The notes: generated by a model not told the origin, from the sequence alone. DNA of 33,217 nucleotides from Gemmatimonadota bacterium (GCA_028874995.1 JAPPGM010000101.1:1-33217); one strand, 5' to 3'; shown: positions 284 through 9,557, counted from the stretch's first letter. Translations and numbers: made by a program.

Positions 284-1354
284 TCAGTCGCGGCTGGTGG
301 AGGGCGGGGAGTCCCAGAGGCTCCGGGGGTAGACCTTCGAGTCTACAAGGGTCCGCAGCGTTTCGGCCACTCCGGCGTGATCGCCGGGGAAGGTGACGCC
401 CAGCCACGTCTCGTCGGTGGGCAGAACCCGGCAGTGGACGAGCCCGCGCGCGATGAGCTCATTCATGGCTTCGGACAGATAGTACTCGGAATCTGTCCCG
501 GGGTCGGTGTCCAGGAACTCGGAAAAGAGGGTTCGGAGGTGCGAAAGGATGCCTGTGACAGATTCGGGGACAGATTCTGAGGGGAATCTGTCACGGAGGG
601 TGTGGGCCGCGATCTCCGGGAATCCCCAGAGGTTGGTGCAGACGGGAGTGTCCAGGGGGACGTCAAGGGGCGTTCCGGCGAGGTCCTGGCCGCGGACCCG
701 GTTTCCGGCGCGGCGCATGCCGAGGCCTTCGGTGAGCTTCTGGAGGGTGCCCGTTTGGTCGACTTGGCAGAGGCCGCGGGAGACGCCGCCGCTCTCGGAG
801 AGGGTGACTTTGAGGGGGTAGCCGACGGTGAGGGCGGGGGTGGGGGCTGATGGCTGATGTGGTGGACCGGGCGGTGAATTGCCTGTGGGGGATTTGCGGG
901 TCGCCGGCGTTGGGTGGCTTGGCGCGTCTCTCATCGCCTGGGCCAGCAACTCGTACGCCCCGCAGCCGTAGAAGTCGTCGGCGTTGCAGAGGGCGAAGGG
1001 GCCGTCGACTTGTTCGGCGGCTGTGAGGACCGCGTGGCCGGTGCCCCAGGGGCGGGTGCGGCCGGGGGGCGGGATGTCGACGAGGCCGGGGTGTGAGAGG
1101 GACTGATACGCGTACCGGAGGTCGAGTCCGGCGGTGGCGGCGGGGTGGAGGTGCGTGTCGAAGTCGGCCTGCAGGTCCTCCTGGATGACGAGCAGGAAGC
1201 GTGAGAAACCGGCCAGCGCGCCGTCGTAGAGGGCGTAGTCGAGGAGGGCCTCGCCGCCGGGGCCGATGGGGGTGAGTTGCTTGAGGCGGCCGAAGCGCGT
1301 GGAGCGGCCGGCCGCGAGGATGACGAGGGTGAGGGGTGGGGTGGCGGGGGGCAT
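284..1354 (-). CDS. NTP-transferase (sugar-nucleotidyltransferase-like) protein
   Basis: A 356-residue predicted nucleotidyltransferase of the GT-A-like NTP_transferase fold. The nucleotide-binding loop LAAGRSTRFG is at residues 13-22 with Lys25 following; WGTGHA at 103-108 and the metal-binding-type NADD at 124-127 follow in the expected order. Such enzymes transfer a nucleotidyl group from an NTP to a sugar phosphate or similar phosphate ester in the cytoplasm; the exact substrate is not evident. Residues 143-176 are a proline/serine/threonine-rich insert that looks like a disordered loop. Residues 254-267 are encoded by a palindromic repeat (separate entry), so part of this region may be an inserted repeat that kept the frame. 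It is the first gene of a likely two-gene minus-strand operon with the symporter. Start chosen as the ATG directly before the hydrophobic first strand. Confidence 0.75.
   Translation of the reverse strand: MPPATPPLTLVILAAGRSTRFGRLKQLTPIGPGGEALLDYALYDGALAGFSRFLLVIQEDLQADFDTHLHPAATAGLDLRYAYQSLSHPGLVDIPPPGRTRPWGTGHAVLTAAEQVDGPFALCNADDFYGCGAYELLAQAMRDAPSHPTPATRKSPTGNSPPGPPHQPSAPTPALTVGYPLKVTLSESGGVSRGLCQVDQTGTLQKLTEGLGMRRAGNRVRGQDLAGTPLDVPLDTPVCTNLWGFPEIAAHTLRDRFPSESVPESVTGILSHLRTLFSEFLDTDPGTDSEYYLSEAMNELIARGLVHCRVLPTDETWLGVTFPGDHAGVAETLRTLVDSKVYPRSLWDSPPSTSRD
474..594. repeat. Palindromic GACAGATTC repeat cluster inside a coding gene
   Basis: GTGACAGATTC at 555-565 is matched by its exact reverse complement GAATCTGTCAC at 584-594. 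Between them lies a third copy, GACAGATTC at 569-577. An inverted copy, GAATCTGTC, is at 489-497, and a partial copy, GACAGAT, starts at 474. The cluster lies within the NTP-transferase gene without breaking its frame. The arrangement resembles REP-like mobile palindromes, but family membership cannot be shown from one locus. Confidence 0.6.
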
Positions 1355-1663
1355 GGGGGAGTTCGTTCAAGTTCACGGAACCGCGGACCATCGGAAGTCT
1401 ACATGGCGGGAGACACGAGAGCCACGGTGGCCACCAAGTCCAGTCCTCAATCGTGGTTGGACGGCGCGGAGTGCTTCCGAGCCTCGATGATCAAAAAGAG
1501 CCATGTCCGGTGACCTTCCTTCCAGCCCAAGGGAAGTCGGTCTATCTTTCGGCGGACGAGTGGCCCACGTGAGCCCAAGCCACCACGTACCCGACAGCTT
1601 CCAACGCTCCTGCCCCGGTCGGACGGTGGGCACCACAGGGAATCCGCCCGCGAAGCGACCGCA

Positions 1664-1690
1664 CCCGGCTGCCGATGGCGGCCGGGTTTT
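1664..1690 (+). terminator. Terminator-like hairpin with T-run
   Basis: CCCGGCTGCC (1664-1673), a three-base loop, then GGCGGCCGGG (1677-1686) form a 10-bp stem with one G-T wobble, followed directly by TTTT and a T-rich stretch. It reads as a plus-strand intrinsic terminator just before the accessory gene pair. No plus-strand gene ends upstream in the window, so it may insulate the pair from outside transcription or mark an old insertion boundary. Confidence 0.5.
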
Positions 1691-1696
1691 CGTTAC

Positions 1697-1707
1697 TCAG
1701 TCCAACG
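1697..1707 (+). repeat. 11-bp direct repeat, left copy
   Basis: TCAGTCCAACG occurs here and again at 5577-5587. The two copies bracket the accessory gene pair and the HigA remnant but not the neighbouring resident genes, as a target duplication or recombination footprint would. Confidence 0.4.
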
Positions 1708-1725
1708 TCCCACCGCAGGACCCAG

Positions 1726-2442
1726 ATGACCCCGCCAAGGCGTGGAGCCGAAGAAGATCACGAATCCAATGTCCATCCTGACCCGAAGCGATCCGTGGCC
1801 CTGTCTCGGGAGCAGCAGCGGCTCCATAGCGCCCTGTGCGAACGTGATGAGCAACTGGGCGCGATGTATCTCGGTGGACTTCAGGTCCTCCGCGACCCCG
1901 CGAATCCAGATCGCGTGGCGCAGTCGGCTCACAGCATGAGAGAGCTCATGGAGAAGATCGGAGAAACCGAGCTGCCGACCGCTGAAGGAAGGAGTACGCG
2001 GAACATGAAGGATGAGGTCTTCAAACTGAGAGGTGCTTTCGCGAAAGCGAAGCGCAATTCGGCAGGATACTCCGAGTCCGGCGGATGGACGGGACCTTTC
2101 GATGGGCATCTGTACCGCTTCCTCAAGAAGCTGAACGACTTCTTCGATTGGGTGGATTCGGATCGTCCATCTCGCAGGTCACAGTTCCAGCGGACCTTGG
2201 TTCACTTGGATCCCTCCGGCCGTGTCTTGGCCAAACCGCTTCGCGACAGACGCTATCGGGCTTGGAGGGAAATTCGCGACTTCTTTCAGCACACCTCACA
2301 CCACCGTGCTTACCCCGGCTTCGACGAATTCCGCAGGAGGATCGGTGAGCTCGAGGTCTTCCTGGCCAGCATGCTGGTCCCCAGAACCTTCGACGACCTG
2401 GACGCAATCGACGCTCTCTTAAGGGAGTCCGGCGATGCCTAA
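1726..2442 (+). CDS. Small HEPN-like protein, first gene of a two-gene accessory cassette
   Basis: A 238-residue mostly helical, charged protein with no signal peptide or membrane segment. I do not recognise a named family. Near the C-terminus the helix reads WREIRDFFQHTSHH, containing R-D-x3-H (Arg184 to His189 from this start). This matches the R-[NDH]-x3-H (Rx4-6H) active-site pattern of HEPN ribonucleases and is followed by another long helix, as in HEPN folds. The motif is seen; RNase activity is inference. The start is the ATG preceded by GCAGGA five bases upstream; an in-frame ATG at 1675 has no ribosome-binding site and lies in the terminator-like hairpin. The stop overlaps the next gene by 8 bases, so the two are translationally coupled. 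By eye the base composition is less GC-rich than the flanking propeller genes. It could instead be a regulatory partner without catalytic activity. Confidence 0.75.
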   Translation: MTPPRRGAEEDHESNVHPDPKRSVALSREQQRLHSALCERDEQLGAMYLGGLQVLRDPANPDRVAQSAHSMRELMEKIGETELPTAEGRSTRNMKDEVFKLRGAFAKAKRNSAGYSESGGWTGPFDGHLYRFLKKLNDFFDWVDSDRPSRRSQFQRTLVHLDPSGRVLAKPLRDRRYRAWREIRDFFQHTSHHRAYPGFDEFRRRIGELEVFLASMLVPRTFDDLDAIDALLRESGDA

Positions 2443-5305
2443 CCCTGCCACCGTCGCGAAAGCCTTGGAGCTGATAGAGCAAGGTGCCGAAAACCACTCG
2501 TATTTCTTCTCCAAGCTCAAGTCCCCTGAGTGGATCGAACCCTTGGTTGAGGCGGGCTTCTTCAAGGACCCTCCTCCGCCAAGGAAACATGGCGACTATG
2601 TCAGCTACCCCACGTGGCCTGAGTCGAAGTACCTGAAAAGGATGGCCCCTGTCGCACCGACCCGGGTGGCTGACGTGGTCGGTCAGCTTCCCGACACGGA
2701 CAACATCTCTGTCCACGAAGACCTGGCGCGTGCGGCGATCAGTCTCGAGGCCAAATCGATGGCCCGATGGGCTACTAGGGAGGCCCGGTGGATCTCGCGG
2801 CAGCAGCACATTCAGTTTCCACTTGGTGAGGCCTTGGGAGCTGTGATCGAACGCTTGGCCAAGCTGGGAAAGACCGGCGCCGCCTTGGAACTGGCGCGTT
2901 CGTTGCTGGCGATCCGCTGCGTCGTCGACTCCGATCGCCCCGGATTCGTCCGCGAACCTCCTCAGCCCTACGGCAGCGGACTCGAGGGGTCCAACGGTGA
3001 GCCAGCGGACGAGGAGCACCGGGAGATTTCCGAGCTGGCAGCTTCCGTCGTGGCACAGCTTTCCAGCCGCATCGTCGGCCAACTGAGTTCGTACGAATAC
3101 CGGGAGTTTGTGGACCGACATGTGCCCGCACTGCTCACGCATGGCGGGATCAAGACCTTCGAGATGCTTTGCGATCTGCTCGAAGAGGCGGTCGAGTCCG
3201 ACAGACTGGGCAGGTACTCCGAGTCGATCTGGCGTCCGGCGATTGAACCACACGGCCAGAACCAAGGGACCGACGTGTCTGATTCTCTGATAGATGCCAT
3301 CAGGGACGCATCAGTCGAACTCGTCGACAATGGGGTCACGCTCGCGACTGTGATCGAATCCTTGGCTCGGCGGCGATCACCGATTTTCGGGCGGATGATA
3401 CTGCACTTGGCTTCGGAAAGACACGAGCAAAATCCTGAGTTGGCTGCGGAACTGGCAGCGTGTGAGGATCACTTCCGGGATGAGCGGTTGCTGCACGAAT
3501 ACAGCAGGCTTCTCGGTGCCGTCTTTCCAGCAATGGATGATGTCAGCAAGAACCGAGTGATGAAGTGGATCAGTGAAGGTCCGGCGTTCCATGACTCGTT
3601 CGCGGGCGATGTCGAGGAGCGGCGCAAGTGGACGATCTATTGGCAGCGTCGACGGCTTGCCTGGATTCATCGCGATCTGGATGAGGAATGGAAGAAACGC
3701 TATACCGCGATAATAGCCGAACTCGGAGAACCAGAGCATCCTGATTTCACCTCGTACACGACAAGCTGGATGGGTCCGACGAGCCCAGTCAGCGGGGAAG
3801 AGCTGGGGTCTCTTTCGCCCGAAGAGATCGCCCAATATGTGAAATCGTGGCAGCCATCCGGGGATCCGATGGCGCCGGACGAGGAAGGTCTGGCAGGAAT
3901 ACTGGAGGCGCTGGTCGCCGAGGCGCCTTCCGGTTTTCTGGAAGCGCGCAAGGCCTTCTTGGAAGTACCGACCCGCTACGTCAGTGCTGTGTTGCAGGGC
4001 CTGTCCCAAGCTGTGCGCGATGACGTTTCCATTGACTGGGCTGCCACCATCGACCTGATGTCCTGGATCGCAGCCCGCCAGAGCAATCACTCTGAGTGGA
4101 GATCGGTGCGCCAGGACTGTATCAGATTGTTGGAGACGGGTCTGCGAGACGACTTGATCGACACTCGACTGCGGAAAGCCGTTTGGACCATCATCGACGT
4201 AGCAGCAGACGACTCGGACCCCACACCCGAGGTGGATTCACAGTTTGCGGGTGACCTGTCGACCCAGTCCATCAGCACCGTCCGAGGGAACGCTCTACAC
4301 GCCGTAGTCACCTATTCGCTATGGGTCTATCGCTCTGTGATGGAGACTCGCGGGGCCAGACCCGGCGTTCTTGGCATGGATAGAGTCCCCGAGGTTCGGG
4401 CAAGGCTCGAAAGGCATCTCGATCCAGAGATTGACCCGTCGCCAGCAATCCGGTCGGTCTACGGACAGTGGTTCCCGCACCTGGTCTTGCTGGACGAGGC
4501 TTGGGCCCGGCGGCACGTAGAAAGGATCTTTCCAGACGACCAGCCGGAGCTTCGAGATGCCGCATGGGAAACGTATCTCCGCTTTTGCCGAGTATACAAC
4601 CTGCCCTTTGAGATGCTCCGTGGCCAATATCTGCAGGCCGTGGATCGCCTTGACGAGATGGGAGAGCGCGACTCGACCACAAGGGAAAACATAGGAGGGT
4701 TTCTCGGGGAGCACCTCGTCACCATGGCCGGTCGTGGCTTGGTTGCCTGGTCGGACGATGACGGCCTGCTCAGGCGGTTTTTTGAGAACACCGAGCCGGA
4801 GGGTGCCCGGCGGCCGATATGGGTGATCGGCAGGTATCTCTCCGACGAGGAAAACGAGATACCTGATGAGGCGGTGCACCGCTTCCAGCGGTTGGCGGAT
4901 GAACTACTCGGGCTATTGGAAGAAGCTGGTCGCGAGCGGATGGGGCACCTGAGTCGGCTGGGGTGGTGGTTCGCATCCGGTCGCTTCGATCCGGAGTGGA
5001 CATTGGAACGGCTGACGCGACTGCTCAAACTTGCCGGGGCGGCAAAGCCGAGTTTCGCGGTGATGGATTCCTTGGCCGAAATGTCCACGAATCATCCGGC
5101 CAAGACCTTCGAGGTGTTAAGCCTCTTGGTGAAGACGAGCACCGATGGGCCGGGTCGCAGTGTACTGGTCGGCCGTAGTGAGCCTGCGCGAGTCATTCTC
5201 GGGGCTGCGCTGGCGCACCCTCCGACGGGGGATGACGCAAGGTTGTTCATCCACCAACTTGGTGCGGTCGGACACGAGGGCTTCCGGGATCTCCTGGAGG
5301 GTTGA
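2435..5305 (+). CDS. Large alpha-solenoid-like protein, second gene of the accessory cassette
   Basis: A 956-residue cytoplasmic-looking protein, almost entirely amphipathic helices rich in Leu, Ala, Glu and Arg, compatible with a HEAT/ARM-like alpha-solenoid. No Walker motif, nuclease motif, signal peptide or membrane helix was seen. The N-terminal module has a distinctive block: WIEPLVEAGFF at about 33-43, a PPPP run, then YPTWPESKYLKRMA at about 58-71; this looks like a conserved docking or recognition module. The ATG lies inside the end of the HEPN-like gene (8-base overlap), so expression is coupled and the products probably act together. A working guess is a sensor or scaffold controlling the HEPN-like partner in a defence or toxin-type system; nothing in the sequence proves this. 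The reading frame is intact and downstream lies a decayed antitoxin gene. Confidence 0.8.
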   Translation: MPNPATVAKALELIEQGAENHSYFFSKLKSPEWIEPLVEAGFFKDPPPPRKHGDYVSYPTWPESKYLKRMAPVAPTRVADVVGQLPDTDNISVHEDLARAAISLEAKSMARWATREARWISRQQHIQFPLGEALGAVIERLAKLGKTGAALELARSLLAIRCVVDSDRPGFVREPPQPYGSGLEGSNGEPADEEHREISELAASVVAQLSSRIVGQLSSYEYREFVDRHVPALLTHGGIKTFEMLCDLLEEAVESDRLGRYSESIWRPAIEPHGQNQGTDVSDSLIDAIRDASVELVDNGVTLATVIESLARRRSPIFGRMILHLASERHEQNPELAAELAACEDHFRDERLLHEYSRLLGAVFPAMDDVSKNRVMKWISEGPAFHDSFAGDVEERRKWTIYWQRRRLAWIHRDLDEEWKKRYTAIIAELGEPEHPDFTSYTTSWMGPTSPVSGEELGSLSPEEIAQYVKSWQPSGDPMAPDEEGLAGILEALVAEAPSGFLEARKAFLEVPTRYVSAVLQGLSQAVRDDVSIDWAATIDLMSWIAARQSNHSEWRSVRQDCIRLLETGLRDDLIDTRLRKAVWTIIDVAADDSDPTPEVDSQFAGDLSTQSISTVRGNALHAVVTYSLWVYRSVMETRGARPGVLGMDRVPEVRARLERHLDPEIDPSPAIRSVYGQWFPHLVLLDEAWARRHVERIFPDDQPELRDAAWETYLRFCRVYNLPFEMLRGQYLQAVDRLDEMGERDSTTRENIGGFLGEHLVTMAGRGLVAWSDDDGLLRRFFENTEPEGARRPIWVIGRYLSDEENEIPDEAVHRFQRLADELLGLLEEAGRERMGHLSRLGWWFASGRFDPEWTLERLTRLLKLAGAAKPSFAVMDSLAEMSTNHPAKTFEVLSLLVKTSTDGPGRSVLVGRSEPARVILGAALAHPPTGDDARLFIHQLGAVGHEGFRDLLEG

Positions 5306-5344
5306 TCGAAGGAAGCAATCTGTTTGCCCGACGGCGAAAGCTCG

Positions 5345-5524
5345 CTACCCTGCGCCGATTGGCTCCCGGGGCGTCACCTGCTCGGAGATCTCCCGCCCCG
5401 CCTCGATCTCTGCACGGCGAAGCTCCCACGTCTTCCGGAGGTTCAACCATAGTTGCGGCGTCGTCCCGAAATAGCGGGCCAGACGCAATGCCGTACCGGC
5501 CTTATGCGTTTCTTCACGTTCATG
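5345..5524 (-). pseudogene. higA: HigA-type antitoxin remnant (C-terminal part)
   Basis: The frame translates as 59 residues containing AGTALRLARYFGTTPQLWL and a charged helix ending in TPREPIGAG. 'A-L-R-L-A-R-Y-F-G-T-[ST]-P-x-[FL]-W-[ML]-N-L' is the signature of the C-terminal half of HigA/VapI-type Xre-family antitoxins. The frame is closed by a TGA directly upstream at 5525-5527 and has no start codon; the DNA-binding half and any HigB toxin gene are missing. It lies between the accessory cassette and the first propeller, marking this as a site where mobile or defence genes have come and gone. Confidence 0.8.
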
Positions 5525-5613: not shown

Positions 5614-6792
5614 TCAACCCCCCTCCCTATCCAACCCCCACAGCTGCACATACTCCACCCCCAGCTCATCCTCCCCCAACCCCAGCACATAGTCCTCCCC
5701 GATCTCGAAGACCTCAAGCCCTTCCGGCGTCTCGACCAGCCCCTGAACCCGCCCTTCCGGATCGAATACCGTCCACACCTCGGCCCCCTCGCCGGATACC
5801 CGGTATTCCCGCACCCAGAGATACCCGGACCGATCCGCGCGGATCTCCGCGAAGGCCGGGTAGGCGTCCACCGGGGGAACCCCCCAGGGTGCCCGCTCGT
5901 CGTACTCGGCCTGGGTTGGGGCTCGCGGGTCCCAGTCGCGCCGGACGATTCTGACCAGCGATCCGTCAGCGGCAAAGGCCTTGATCTCGTAGCTGTTCTG
6001 TACTCCGACCGCGACGAGGTCCCCCCACACGGCTCCCGCGGTGCCGCGCTGGAAGGGGTGCTGCATGTCTCCTCCCCACAATTCGCTGAAATACGCCTCG
6101 CCGTAGGGAAGCATCCCAAGTGAGGCGGACAGCGTCCCGTCCACGTCCAGAACCGACCATTCCGTTTCCAGGCGAACGAGGTCCCTGGTCTCAAAGACGG
6201 CCGATCGGTTGAATATCTGGCTGCCCCGCGAGACCATCCTCCCGTCCGGCAGCACGTCGAGAATACCGCCCCGGGTGGCCTCGAAGGCCACGTTGCGGCC
6301 GTGGTTGCCGTTCATGTCGAAGATCGGCAGTCTGGGGCTGTAGGGTGCATCGGCAGCGGCGACCGAGTCCCCCGGCCAGTGTGCGACGGCCGTCGGACCG
6401 TGGGCGGTGAATTCACCGGGTCCCTCGCCCCGGCGTCCCCAGGTTCCGGAATGGGAGCCATCGGGACCGAAGACCTTCAACTCGTTGGTGCCCATGTTGG
6501 CGACTACGATCCGGCCGTCCCCAAGCCGGATGGCATCCGTCACCCGAAACAATTCGTCGGCGCCGCCGCTTTCGACGGAGCCGATCGAGAGGGACGGTTG
6601 CGCGCCGATCTCCCACGGGAGCCGCGAGTCGGGGGCGGGTTGGCTGTTCTCGACAATCACAATGCCGGCGCTGTCCCGCATCGCCGCGTGGAGTCCGGGG
6701 CCGGCGGTGCCGCCCGGGCCCTCGCACCCTACGGCCAACGGTGCCAGCGCGAGAACTGCGGTCCAGCCCGGGGTGGTCCTTGAGTCACTCAT
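5614..6792 (-). CDS. 6-bladed beta-propeller lipoprotein (propeller 1)
   Basis: A 392-residue exported protein. The N-terminus has a hydrophobic stretch ending in LAVGC, so Cys23 is a likely lipidation site. The mature part repeats NHL/6-bladed-propeller-type blades: DGRIVVAN followed by LKVFGPDG and then the family hallmark GEGPGEF (about 122-128). The C-terminus closes with DELGVEYVQLWGLDR. Function is unknown; such proteins are taken to be surface or periplasmic binding modules. It is the last of three minus-strand paralogues, 41 bases after propeller 2, so probably one operon. An AAGG stretch four bases before the ATG supports the start. The 3' end shares 35 identical bases with propeller 3, a sign of recent duplication or gene conversion. 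Confidence 0.85.
   Translation of the reverse strand: MSDSRTTPGWTAVLALAPLAVGCEGPGGTAGPGLHAAMRDSAGIVIVENSQPAPDSRLPWEIGAQPSLSIGSVESGGADELFRVTDAIRLGDGRIVVANMGTNELKVFGPDGSHSGTWGRRGEGPGEFTAHGPTAVAHWPGDSVAAADAPYSPRLPIFDMNGNHGRNVAFEATRGGILDVLPDGRMVSRGSQIFNRSAVFETRDLVRLETEWSVLDVDGTLSASLGMLPYGEAYFSELWGGDMQHPFQRGTAGAVWGDLVAVGVQNSYEIKAFAADGSLVRIVRRDWDPRAPTQAEYDERAPWGVPPVDAYPAFAEIRADRSGYLWVREYRVSGEGAEVWTVFDPEGRVQGLVETPEGLEVFEIGEDYVLGLGEDELGVEYVQLWGLDREGG
5630..5664 (-). repeat. 35-base segment identical to 8193-8227
   Basis: The 3' coding end of propeller 1 and that of propeller 3 are identical over 35 bases, encoding the closing blade around GVEYVQLWGLD. The rest of the two genes is more diverged, so this is a patch of recent exchange or strong conservation. 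Confidence 0.6.
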
Positions 6793-6833
6793 TCAGCCTT
6801 GGTCCTTAATCAGGAATATACATGGCCCCGCGA

Positions 6834-8056
6834 TCACCCAGCCTCCCGCGACAGCGCCCACAACTGCACGTATTCCACGCCGAGATCATCCGTCACCAAC
6901 CCCAGCACGTAATCCTCGCCGATCTCCAAGACATCCAGCCCGGGCGGAGTCTCGACCAGCCCCTGGATCCGCCCCTCCGGATCGAACACCGTCCAAACCG
7001 CGGGCCCCTCGCCGAACATCCGGTACTCACGCACCCAGAGATACCCGGCCCGGTCGCCGACGATCTCCTCGAAGACCGGGTAGGATTCCACCAGCGGCAT
7101 GTCCCTCACCATGTTCAGCATTCGGGTCCGAACCTCGGCCGGGCGGCCGGCAACCCGCCGGGCAAAGAGCTCGTCCAGCTCGGCCTGCGCGGGTTTGCGC
7201 GGGTCGCCCTCACGGCGGACGATTCGGACCAGCGACCCATCAGCGGCGAATGCCTTGATCTCGTAGCTGTCCTGCACCCCGATCGCCAGGAGGCTTCCCC
7301 AGAGGGTCCCCACGGTGCTTCGACCAAAGGGGTGAGGCTGCTCGACCATGTCCCCATCCGGCGTGGAGACCGCCCAGTCCTCGAATGCGGGAAACTCGCC
7401 GAATGAACCATCCCGGGTACCGTCCACATCCAGGACTGCCCATTCGAGGTCGGAGCGAATGAGGTCCGGGGATCCCGTTGCCCTTCGGTTGACCAGGAGA
7501 CTGCCGCGCGCGAACATCTTGCCGTCGGGGAGCAGGTCGATGACGCCGAGCAGTGTGGGGTCGAGGGCTATTTCGCGGCCATGATTCCCGTTCATGTCGA
7601 ACAGCGACATCCGATGTCCTCCCGGGTCCAGAGCGGCGATCGAGTCGCCGGGCCAGAGCGCGATGACGCTCGGACCCCTGCTGAACTCACCCGGCCCTTC
7701 ACCCTGCCGCCCCCAGGTACCCGAGTGGGATCCGTCCGCGTTGAAGACCTTGATCTCGCTGCTGCCCGCGTTGGCGATCATAATGCGCCCGTCCGCGAGC
7801 AGGGTGGCGTCGCGGACACGGAACAGCTCGTCCGCCTCGCCACTGTCGACGGACCCGATCGAAAGAGCTGGGTGTTCGCTGAACCACGGAAGCCGCGAAT
7901 CCGGCGCGACCGGATCATTCGTGACGATGGTGACGCCGGCGCTGTCCGCGACCACCACGCCGAGCCCGTATGATTGGCTTCGTCGGAGCTTTGGCATGCG
8001 GTGGGGAGAGCCAGCAAAGTGAAGATCTCCCAGGGTCGTGGGGATCGCTTGATCAT
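6834..8056 (-). CDS. 6-bladed beta-propeller lipoprotein (propeller 2), probably frameshifted near the N-terminus
   Basis: The propeller body (from about 7965 down to 6834) closely resembles propeller 1: DGRIMIAN, then GEGPGEF, AFAADGSLVRIVRR and a closing DDLGVEYVQLW. Its own frame has no signal peptide: the nearest in-frame ATG (7997) starts MPKLRRSQ, and longer starts give Arg/Ser-rich sequence. In a second frame, starting at ATG 8056, there is a good lipoprotein signal, MIKRSPRPWEIFTLLALPTAC, followed by QSSDEANH. Joining the frames at about 7960-7985 gives signal, Cys, linker and then ADSAGVTIV, matching the paralogue's RDSAGIVIV. Either the gene has a one-base indel or the assembly has an error. 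Coordinates given span both frames, so the length is not a multiple of three. It lies in the operon propeller 3 - 2 - 1. Confidence 0.75.
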
Positions 8057-8176
8057 TGGACCGGCTCTCTGTCGCGAGACGGGGGGGCATCGCGGTGGAT
8101 TGGACACTGCGCGAAGAGGTTGGTTCGGTCCGGCTCGGCGTGTCAAGCTCCCAGGAGTGCCGGCGCCTGGCGATTG

Positions 8177-9391
8177 CTACCCCGCGCCCCGGTCCAACCC
8201 CCACAGCTGCACATACTCCACCCCCAGTTCATCTCTGGCCCTGCCGAGGATGTAGTCCTCGCCGATCTCGAAGACGCCGAGGCCGGACGGCATTTCCACC
8301 AGTCCCTGCACGCGTCCCTCCTGGTCGAAGACGGTCCAGATTGAACTCCGGCGCTCCCGCACCCACAGATGGCCGAGCCGGTCCGACAGGATCCGCGAAA
8401 AGGCGCGGTAGGAGTCCACGAGAGGCATGTGCCTTACCTCTCTCAGGGCATTGGCGCGCCGGTCGTCCGGCAGGTCGGCGTAGCGCCGCTCCCAGTAGGA
8501 GTCCTGTTCGGCCCGGGTTGGGCTCCCCGGGTCACCGTCGCGGCGGACGATCCTGACCAGCCTTCCGTCCGTGGCGAAGGCCTTGATCTCGTAGACGGCC
8601 TGGTCGCCGATCGCGACGAGGTCCCCCCACACGGCTCCAACGGTGTTGCGGCCGAAGGGGTGCACCTGGCTGCTCTCGATCTGTCCGCCCCGCGCAAAGA
8701 CCGCCCACCATTCGGTCCCGGGGTATTCGCCAAAGGAAGCGTCCAGCTTGCCGTCCGGGCCCAGGACTTTCCACTCGACGTCCGGACGCACGAGTCCCGT
8801 GGATCCCGTCATTCCCCCGTGCATTCCCGCAATGCCGCCGGTGACGATTCGTCCGTCCGCCAGCAGGTCGACAACGTTGGAAATACCGGCTTCGAGATGC
8901 ACGTCGCGGCCGTGGTTGCCGTCCTTGTCGAAGATCGACAATCGACCTGCCCAGCGGTTCGGCGCGGCGATGGAGTCACCGGGCCAGCGTGCGACGACGG
9001 TAGGAGCGTCGCTGGCGAATTCGCCCGGTCCCTCGCCGCGGCCTCCCCACGTCCCCGCGTGCGATCCGTCGGGGTAGAAGACCCTGAGTTCGCTGCTGCC
9101 GGCGTTGGCGATCACGATCCTGCCGTCCGGCAGCCGGGTTGCGTCCATGACCCAGTGGAACTGGTCGGGGCCTCCGCCGGCGACGCTTCCGATGGAGAGG
9201 GAGGGCTCGGCGCTGATCCGCCACGGCAGGCGCGAGTCCGGTGGGGGACGCCGGTTCTCGATGATTGGGATGCCGGTGGTGTCCTGGATCGCCGAAGGCG
9301 GACCGTCGAGGAGGGTGGCGCTGGCGTGGTTGCTCGCGAGGTTGAAGAGGGCGAGGGCGAGGAGGGTGAGGGCGAGCCGGATCGACTTCAT
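8177..9391 (-). CDS. Secreted 6-bladed beta-propeller protein (propeller 3)
   Basis: A 404-residue protein with a classical Sec signal, MKSIRLALTLLALAL through NHASA, without a lipobox cysteine, unlike its two downstream paralogues. The body has the same order of blades: IPIIENRRP, DSRLPW, DGRIVIANAGSSELRVF, GEGPGEF, EIKAFATDGRLVRIVRR and DELGVEYVQLWGLDR. The start ATG at 9391 was chosen because it begins the signal peptide; the upstream in-frame extension is Arg/Ser-rich and has no signal. It is the first gene of the three-propeller minus-strand run, with a 120-base gap to propeller 2. Ligand and role are unknown. Confidence 0.85.
   Translation of the reverse strand: MKSIRLALTLLALALFNLASNHASATLLDGPPSAIQDTTGIPIIENRRPPPDSRLPWRISAEPSLSIGSVAGGGPDQFHWVMDATRLPDGRIVIANAGSSELRVFYPDGSHAGTWGGRGEGPGEFASDAPTVVARWPGDSIAAPNRWAGRLSIFDKDGNHGRDVHLEAGISNVVDLLADGRIVTGGIAGMHGGMTGSTGLVRPDVEWKVLGPDGKLDASFGEYPGTEWWAVFARGGQIESSQVHPFGRNTVGAVWGDLVAIGDQAVYEIKAFATDGRLVRIVRRDGDPGSPTRAEQDSYWERRYADLPDDRRANALREVRHMPLVDSYRAFSRILSDRLGHLWVRERRSSIWTVFDQEGRVQGLVEMPSGLGVFEIGEDYILGRARDELGVEYVQLWGLDRGAG
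8193..8227 (-). repeat. 35-base segment identical to 5630-5664
   Basis: Partner of the identical segment at the 3' end of propeller 1; see that entry. Confidence 0.6.
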
Positions 9392-9498
9392 GACCTGGGC
9401 CTCTGGAGGTAACGGGGAACGGCGTATCTGAATCTGAGACAACCATCGCACGCGCGGGGGTTGCGCCAGCGCCCGGTTGGGCCTGCTCCGGTGCCGAC

Positions 9499-9557
9499 TT
9501 GACGATCGCCTTGGCGAGTCATAATGTGAGTCACAACGCATCGTCCTAGTGAGTCAT
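9499..9557 (+). promoter_or_regulatory. Promoter and repeated operator of the truncated antitoxin gene
   Basis: TTGACG (9499-9504) and CATAAT (9520-9525), 15 bases apart, form a plausible plus-strand promoter. GAGTCAT/GAGTCAC is repeated at 9516-9522, 9528-9534 and 9551-9557; two copies extend to the palindrome TGAGTCA. Starts are 12 and 23 bases apart, roughly one and two helical turns, as expected for cooperative binding by a ribbon-helix-helix autorepressor. Confidence 0.45.

Follow-up and report, generated by a model that had tools for sequence, protein, structure and literature searches.

What does an overlapping pair of genes, lodged between ordinary neighbors on a contig of a Gemmatimonadota bacterium, do for its host? 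The pair lies in a 33,217-nt stretch of DNA (GCA_028874995.1 JAPPGM010000101.1:1-33217; hereafter, the window) and consists of a small gene and a large one. A first-pass annotation, made from the window's sequence, had read them as a HEPN ribonuclease (RNase) effector with a large sensor, together forming a candidate defense system. What stands of that proposal is a small all-alpha putative effector beside a large solenoid, obligate pairing, and, as added here, kinship with DSR1; what falls is the active site it had assigned. We consider it likely from the comparisons below that the pair is a two-gene anti-phage (abortive-infection) system of the DSR1 type that has a separate HEPN-like effector instead of the SIR2 NADase.

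The gene pair

Both open reading frames (ORFs), of 238 and 956 residues with an overlap of 8 bases, are present where the first-pass annotation had placed them:

1726..2442, plus strand: small gene, 238 amino acids, HEPN-like (pP_pnuc_1-like) putative effector (ORF, weak PF18165 match, hhalign, purifying selection)
2435..5305, plus strand: large gene, 956 amino acids, predicted DSR1-type sensor solenoid that lacks SIR2 (PADLOC Dsr1, NF041818, HEAT-like model)
2435..2442, plus strand: gene overlap, 8 bp (identical length in relatives and in a Vibrio SIR2 pair)

The frame of the small gene is open from position 1675 and would give 255 amino acids if read from there. We favor the start at 1726, which gives 238 amino acids, because the homolog of the small protein in a close relative (L055) starts at MTPPRRGAEEDH. 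That relative is a 3.8-kb contig labeled Chloroflexi; like several of the loci used here it comes from a metagenome bin, where host names may be wrong, and our conclusions are independent of the host name of any single locus. The two window proteins show no homology to each other, and the 8-bp overlap likely reflects translational coupling of their genes. As the first-pass annotation had noted, the pair is lower in G+C content than its surroundings (0.59 to 0.61, versus 0.64 to 0.69 on the flanks).

Both genes are under purifying selection, with ratios of nonsynonymous to synonymous substitution rates (dN/dS) of about 0.2 to 0.35. Compared with its L055 homolog, the small gene has a dN of 0.063 and a dS of 0.298. 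The genome carries a diverged second copy of the pair, 62% identical for the small protein and 68% for the large one, on a different contig, and the large gene compared with this copy has a dN of 0.209 and a dS of 0.975. Given this purifying selection, the second diverged copy, and recurrence in several phyla, the pair is more than a chance arrangement of two reading frames.

Kinship of the large protein with DSR1

The first-pass annotation could name no system for the large protein. The PADLOC model Dsr1 matches it with an E value of 1.5e-54, aligning residues 213 to 738 with positions 500 to 1021 of the 1227 in the model. The NCBIfam equivalog for Dsr1 (NF041818) scores it at 55.8 bits, which does not reach the family cutoff of 1400 bits. 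The part of DSR1 that is absent from the large protein is the N-terminal SIR2 domain, and profile searches of Pfam, PADLOC, and NCBIfam returned no SIR2 match in either window protein.

A plasmid of Vibrio coralliilyticus, pOCN014, extends this comparison. On it, a 306-amino-acid SIR2 protein (WP_040122581.1), covering Dsr1 model positions 5 to 301, overlaps by 8 bp a 942-amino-acid scaffold (WP_040122582.1) that covers positions 311 to 1213. The Vibrio scaffold in turn aligns with the scaffold family of the window (E 8.9e-21); the alignment spans 836 columns, among them the FFxKL...W...WPxxxYL block. By way of this split DSR1, profile comparison identifies the large protein as homologous along its length to the non-SIR2 part of DSR1. 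One stretch of this block can be located in the window:

2615..2635, plus strand: WPESKYL block, residues 61 to 67 of the large protein, signature of the scaffold family (conserved in the alignment; also in the SIR2-split Vibrio scaffold)

The first-pass annotation had singled out this block as distinctive; it is real, and it is common to the whole scaffold family. The helical repeats noted at the same time are borne out by the predicted structure, an all-alpha HEAT-like solenoid with a predicted local distance difference test score (pLDDT) of 81.4. In structure comparison, this model comes closest to CAND1, karyopherins, and the PP2A scaffold. Searches by sequence, profiles included, found no solved relative of the large or the small protein.

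Pairing and fusion

Intact short scaffolds (about 925 to 972 amino acids) occur in several phyla, and the small gene lies directly upstream in 16 of the 16 examined; in one of these pairs (G139), the small gene is out of frame at its start. Within the window's phylum, the scaffold is present in 19 of 395 genomes. A reciprocal search of the same 395 genomes with the small family returned nine loci, all adjoining a scaffold, plus one marginal match (E 5e-4). The first-pass annotation had asked whether the two genes co-occur in other genomes, and their pairing is obligate. Most pairs, among them those of L003, L034, L035, L036, L055, L060, L118, and L125, overlap by 8 bp and others by 4 to 17 bp; a few with uncertain starts have a longer apparent overlap. 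We found no relatives of the pair in phage records or viral contigs, and no relatives of the small protein in plasmids.

About 16 further scaffolds are longer (about 1100 to 1250 amino acids), and their N-terminal extension is the small-protein domain, fused to the scaffold. An hhalign comparison of the small family with these fused N termini gave a probability of 96.8 (E 3e-10), with the conserved R-E pair and His aligned, and one fused protein (L121) bears the short-type domain itself. In the scaffold tree, a quick tree with long branches, scaffolds bearing the HEPN-like domain cluster together (SH-aLRT branch support 93), and at least eight switches between split and fused forms are needed. 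The HEPN-like subtypes on the sister scaffolds L121 and L129/L131 are clearly different, a hint of effector exchange within the HEPN-like branch. In addition, locus L120 (1555-5301, minus strand) encodes a fused protein in which two tandem HEPN-like domains, with two R-E...H sets, precede the scaffold, an arrangement that fits a dimeric effector.

Exchange of effectors on the scaffold family

The same scaffold family carries other effectors. SIR2 is fused to the scaffold in L122, L123, L133, L134, and Rhodococcus L076, and is split from it in Vibrio L075. In L132 (6090-9404, minus strand), a TIR domain (TIR_2, E 5.7e-11) is fused to a DSR1-type scaffold that is sister to a SIR2-fused form. Because the branch marked with a star in the scaffold tree unites the TIR form with a SIR2 form, replacement of the effector on a standing sensor is the simplest reading. 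A DUF4062 domain with an NTPase sits on the scaffold in L127 (E 1.5e-22). Haloarchaeal plasmid proteins of about 1400 to 1510 amino acids (L063, L064, L077, and L078) have an N-terminal region followed by a DSR1-type scaffold, and that region gives AAA/STAND-like NTPase matches in L063, L064, and L078. Another DSR1-type scaffold (L135, 8801-12121, plus strand) has an N-terminal region of about 218 amino acids in which no Pfam match was found.

The small protein stands where DSR1 has its SIR2 domain. This position bears on the possibility that the roles are reversed, with the large protein as the effector and the small protein in an adaptor or regulatory role. Such a reversal would agree with the lack of a confident catalytic family match for the small protein, but no catalytic domain was found in the large protein by Pfam and the small protein occupies the position of the SIR2 and TIR effectors on homologous scaffolds; we consider a reversal of roles unlikely.

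We lean toward a broader interpretation, in which the C-terminal solenoid of DSR1 would be a general, exchangeable phage-sensing module that carries at least four types of effector (SIR2, TIR, HEPN-like, and STAND/DUF4062 NTPase), fused or split, in bacteria and haloarchaea. The HEPN-like-armed branch would then be large and undescribed, with two-gene and fused forms, and the window would hold one of its split members. The trigger and control of DSR1 have so far been regarded as those of a sirtuin; if a single sensor controls effectors as different as SIR2, TIR, and the HEPN-like domain, detection and killing can be separated from each other. If this is true, many unannotated helical proteins of about 950 and about 1150 amino acids in these genomes are predictable defense sensors. 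The split pairs lay the control step open to a direct test, given that each partner is a protein of its own, to be expressed alone, mixed with the other, or exchanged.

Fold and conserved residues of the small protein

The nearest Pfam family of the small protein is PF18165 (pP_pnuc_1, predicted pPIWI-associating nuclease). The match is weak (E 4.9e-4; 20.2 bits against a cutoff of 26.3), and no scanned relative of the pair reached the curated gathering cutoff of this family; some relatives match the first half of the profile and others its second half. A true pP_pnuc_1 protein of the same genus shares with the small family a RELW helix and a later His. A match of the small protein to DUF5825 was not reproduced in relatives and was dropped.

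The small protein is modeled as an all-alpha helical bundle (pLDDT 75.9). Structure comparison (VIA) matched this model to 2q00 (Z 7.1), to 2hsb (HEPN) and HepT 6m6u (Z 6.6), and to Csm6 8pe3 (Z 5.9); HepT 7bxo also matched, and the scores against HEPN structures ranged overall from 5.8 to 7.1. Foldseek returned no match to the model below E 0.001. Based on the model, a HEPN-like fold is plausible.

We examined residue conservation in 33 family members, comprising split and fused forms and one pP_pnuc_1 protein, with numbering from the start at 1726. The following positions stand out:

1939..1944, plus strand: codons of R72 and E73, adjoining invariant residues of predicted helix 3 (residues 63 to 79) (R in 33/33; E or D in 33/33)
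2263..2265, plus strand: codon of W180, nearly invariant (30/33)
2299..2304, plus strand: codons of H192-H193, just past the predicted helix 170 to 191, candidate catalytic His (H in 29/33, K in 4/33)

The invariant R-E pair and the mostly conserved His suggest a catalytic site. The first-pass annotation had instead taken an R-D-x3-H motif as the HEPN RNase active site. In the window copy this motif is R184-D185-x3-H189; it becomes W...D in the small protein of L055, which is 89% identical, and it varies freely in other relatives. As even L055 lacks this motif, we rejected it as the active site.

The genomic site

The first-pass annotation had described housekeeping-type neighbors around the pair and a decayed antitoxin after it, and both descriptions hold. 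The site contains the following features outside the two genes:

284..1354, minus strand: MobA-like nucleotidyltransferase, flanking anchor (Pfam NTP_transf_3, E 4.6e-8; orthologs in 22 of the 23 genomes of the genus)
1372..5365, plus strand: cassette block missing in sister genomes (blastn of two empty-site genomes)
1663..1687, plus strand: terminator-like hairpin in the leader (1 found versus 0.3 expected; sequence kept in relatives)
5345..5494, minus strand: HigA-like antitoxin, C-terminal remnant, a resident gene outside the system (intact at the same site in relatives)
5614..6792, minus strand: beta-propeller gene, the other anchor (DUF5128 match; adjoins the nucleotidyltransferase in empty-site genomes)

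In blastn comparisons with two sister genomes (G098 and G197), the alignment ends at window position 1371 and resumes at 5366, with 76 to 78 bp replacing the block of about 4.0 kb; the flanks of the window are 93 to 95% identical to G098 at the DNA level. Two further genomes (G139 and G064) have the site occupied, and another (G309) has a decayed copy there. Because the site is occupied in some genomes and empty in sister genomes, the pair is a cassette that is gained or lost as a unit, and a recent acquisition of the pair is supported. Neither a transposase nor a target duplication turned up in the window. These comparisons make a housekeeping pair with no defense role very improbable: the ordinary genes on both sides would suit such a pair, but few relatives have it, the site is empty in sister genomes, one relative has the pair in decayed form, and the large protein is related to DSR1.

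An intact HigA-like antitoxin gene is present at the same site in G098, G197, and G017, and only its C-terminal part is present in the window; it is therefore a resident gene that was damaged there. We considered it as a third component of the system and rejected this, given that it is intact at empty sites. That the site formerly held a HigA-like antitoxin, that the genes appear coupled, and that the small protein is toxin-like would agree with a toxin-antitoxin pair, in which the large protein neutralizes the small one and the two serve maintenance of the cassette rather than phage sensing. A HEAT-like solenoid of 956 residues that shares ancestry with a phage sensor would, however, be an unusual antitoxin, and the scaffold module is fused to its effector in many lineages and also bears SIR2 or TIR; we give a toxin-antitoxin pair little chance.

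Several smaller observations concern the same surroundings. The leader hairpin lies 39 nt 5' of the small-gene start codon, and its sequence is kept in L055, L033, L034, and L037; it is possibly an attenuator or the end of a short upstream transcript. Three homologous beta-propeller (DUF5128-like) genes stand in a row at 5614-9541 (minus strand), an arrangement that is repeated in related genomes, too. In G017, an IS3-like transposase pair lies beside the antitoxin gene (L186, 2624-3747). A fused copy on a Streptomyces plasmid (L062, 7461-10733, plus strand) lies beside TnsA/TniB/Mu-type transposition genes and is possibly transposon cargo.

A proposed mechanism

If the pair is a DSR1-type defense system, both genes would be translated together by way of the 8-bp overlap, and the solenoid would bind the small protein and hold it inactive. 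A phage protein, perhaps a structural one like the tail tube, as the example of DSR2 suggests, would bind the solenoid as the trigger. The HEPN-like domains would then be released or paired, RNA would be cut by a putative composite site formed by R72, E73, and H192, and the infected cell would cease growth. For RNA cleavage as the effector chemistry, we put the chances at about even.

Several points weigh against this interpretation. Its support is computational. The canonical Rx4-6H motif of HEPN proteins is not conserved across the family, and position 192 is Lys in 4 of the 33 members. Unrelated four-helix bundles score level with HEPN structures against the model of the small protein; because of this tie and the Foldseek result, the model allows a HEPN fold and says no more. 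The window copy adjoins ordinary genes and lies outside any defense island. In favor of the interpretation, on the other hand, several fused or split relatives do lie beside restriction-modification or other defense genes: in L116 the neighbor is a GajA/OLD-like ATPase, in L121 there are type I restriction-modification genes and a PtuA-like ATPase, in L126 a PD-T4-6-like kinase, and in L129 a methyltransferase. The neighbors of relatives gave matches to 358 PADLOC models versus 44 in matched control regions, a difference inflated by redundancy; because one restriction gene matches dozens of redundant models, this census is suggestive at most.

The points on motif and His bear on a variant in which DSR1-type defense holds and the small protein is no RNase; it would be a DNA nuclease, act on another substrate, or be a noncatalytic RNA-binding toxin. 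We regard this variant as a real possibility, though not the one we would choose. Consistent with it, the nearest Pfam family is named for a predicted pPIWI-associating nuclease, Rx4-6H is not conserved, Lys replaces the His in some members, and noncatalytic HEPN toxins are on record (PMC3710099). On the other side, the invariant R-E pair and mostly conserved His point to a catalytic site, and some HEPN families that have the H but not the motif R (Parep1/8) are viewed as possible RNases using alternative residues (PMC3710099).

Comparison with known systems

The DSR1-type system that we favor can be set against its nearest described relatives. The window pair resembles DSR1 (NF041818, PADLOC Dsr1) in its homologous sensor region, in a putative effector that is N-terminal to the sensor, and in the helical-repeat solenoid. 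Unlike DSR1, it has no SIR2, its HEPN-like effector is encoded by a separate overlapping gene, and its score of 55.8 bits lies below the family cutoff of 1400. The pair therefore belongs beside DSR1 by its sensor, yet is not itself a DSR1, since SIR2 is absent and the family cutoff is missed. The split DSR1 of Vibrio pOCN014 shares with it a small effector gene, the 8-bp overlap, and a scaffold of about 940 amino acids from the same family, whereas its effector is SIR2. We found no published description of the Vibrio pair, and none of a HEPN-armed or TIR-armed DSR1-type scaffold in the open-licence journal papers that we searched.

In DSR2, sensing falls to the C-terminal domain, which binds the tail tube protein of the phage and governs the SIR2 domain (PMC10973363). 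The window pair would share the plan of an N-terminal effector under the control of a helical C-terminal sensor, if its division of labor is as we infer; it differs in that the effector of DSR2 is SIR2. With pP_pnuc_1 (PF18165; PADLOC Aga_Nuclease), the small protein shares an R-E pair in one helix and a later His. It differs in that all matches fall under the curated cutoff and in that its partner is a DSR1-type scaffold and no Argonaute.

The hallmarks of the HEPN superfamily are an acidic residue in helix 2 and, where helix 3 ends, an Rx4-6H motif. The small protein resembles HEPN members (HepT, AF0298, and Csm6) in its predicted all-alpha bundle, in the acidic residue in an early helix (E73 or D, 33/33), and in the His predicted to lie where a later helix ends (29/33). 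It departs from them in having no conserved Rx4-6H and in a structural match no better than that of unrelated bundles. Because the defining motif is not conserved, we do not file the small protein as HEPN, although it may well work like one.

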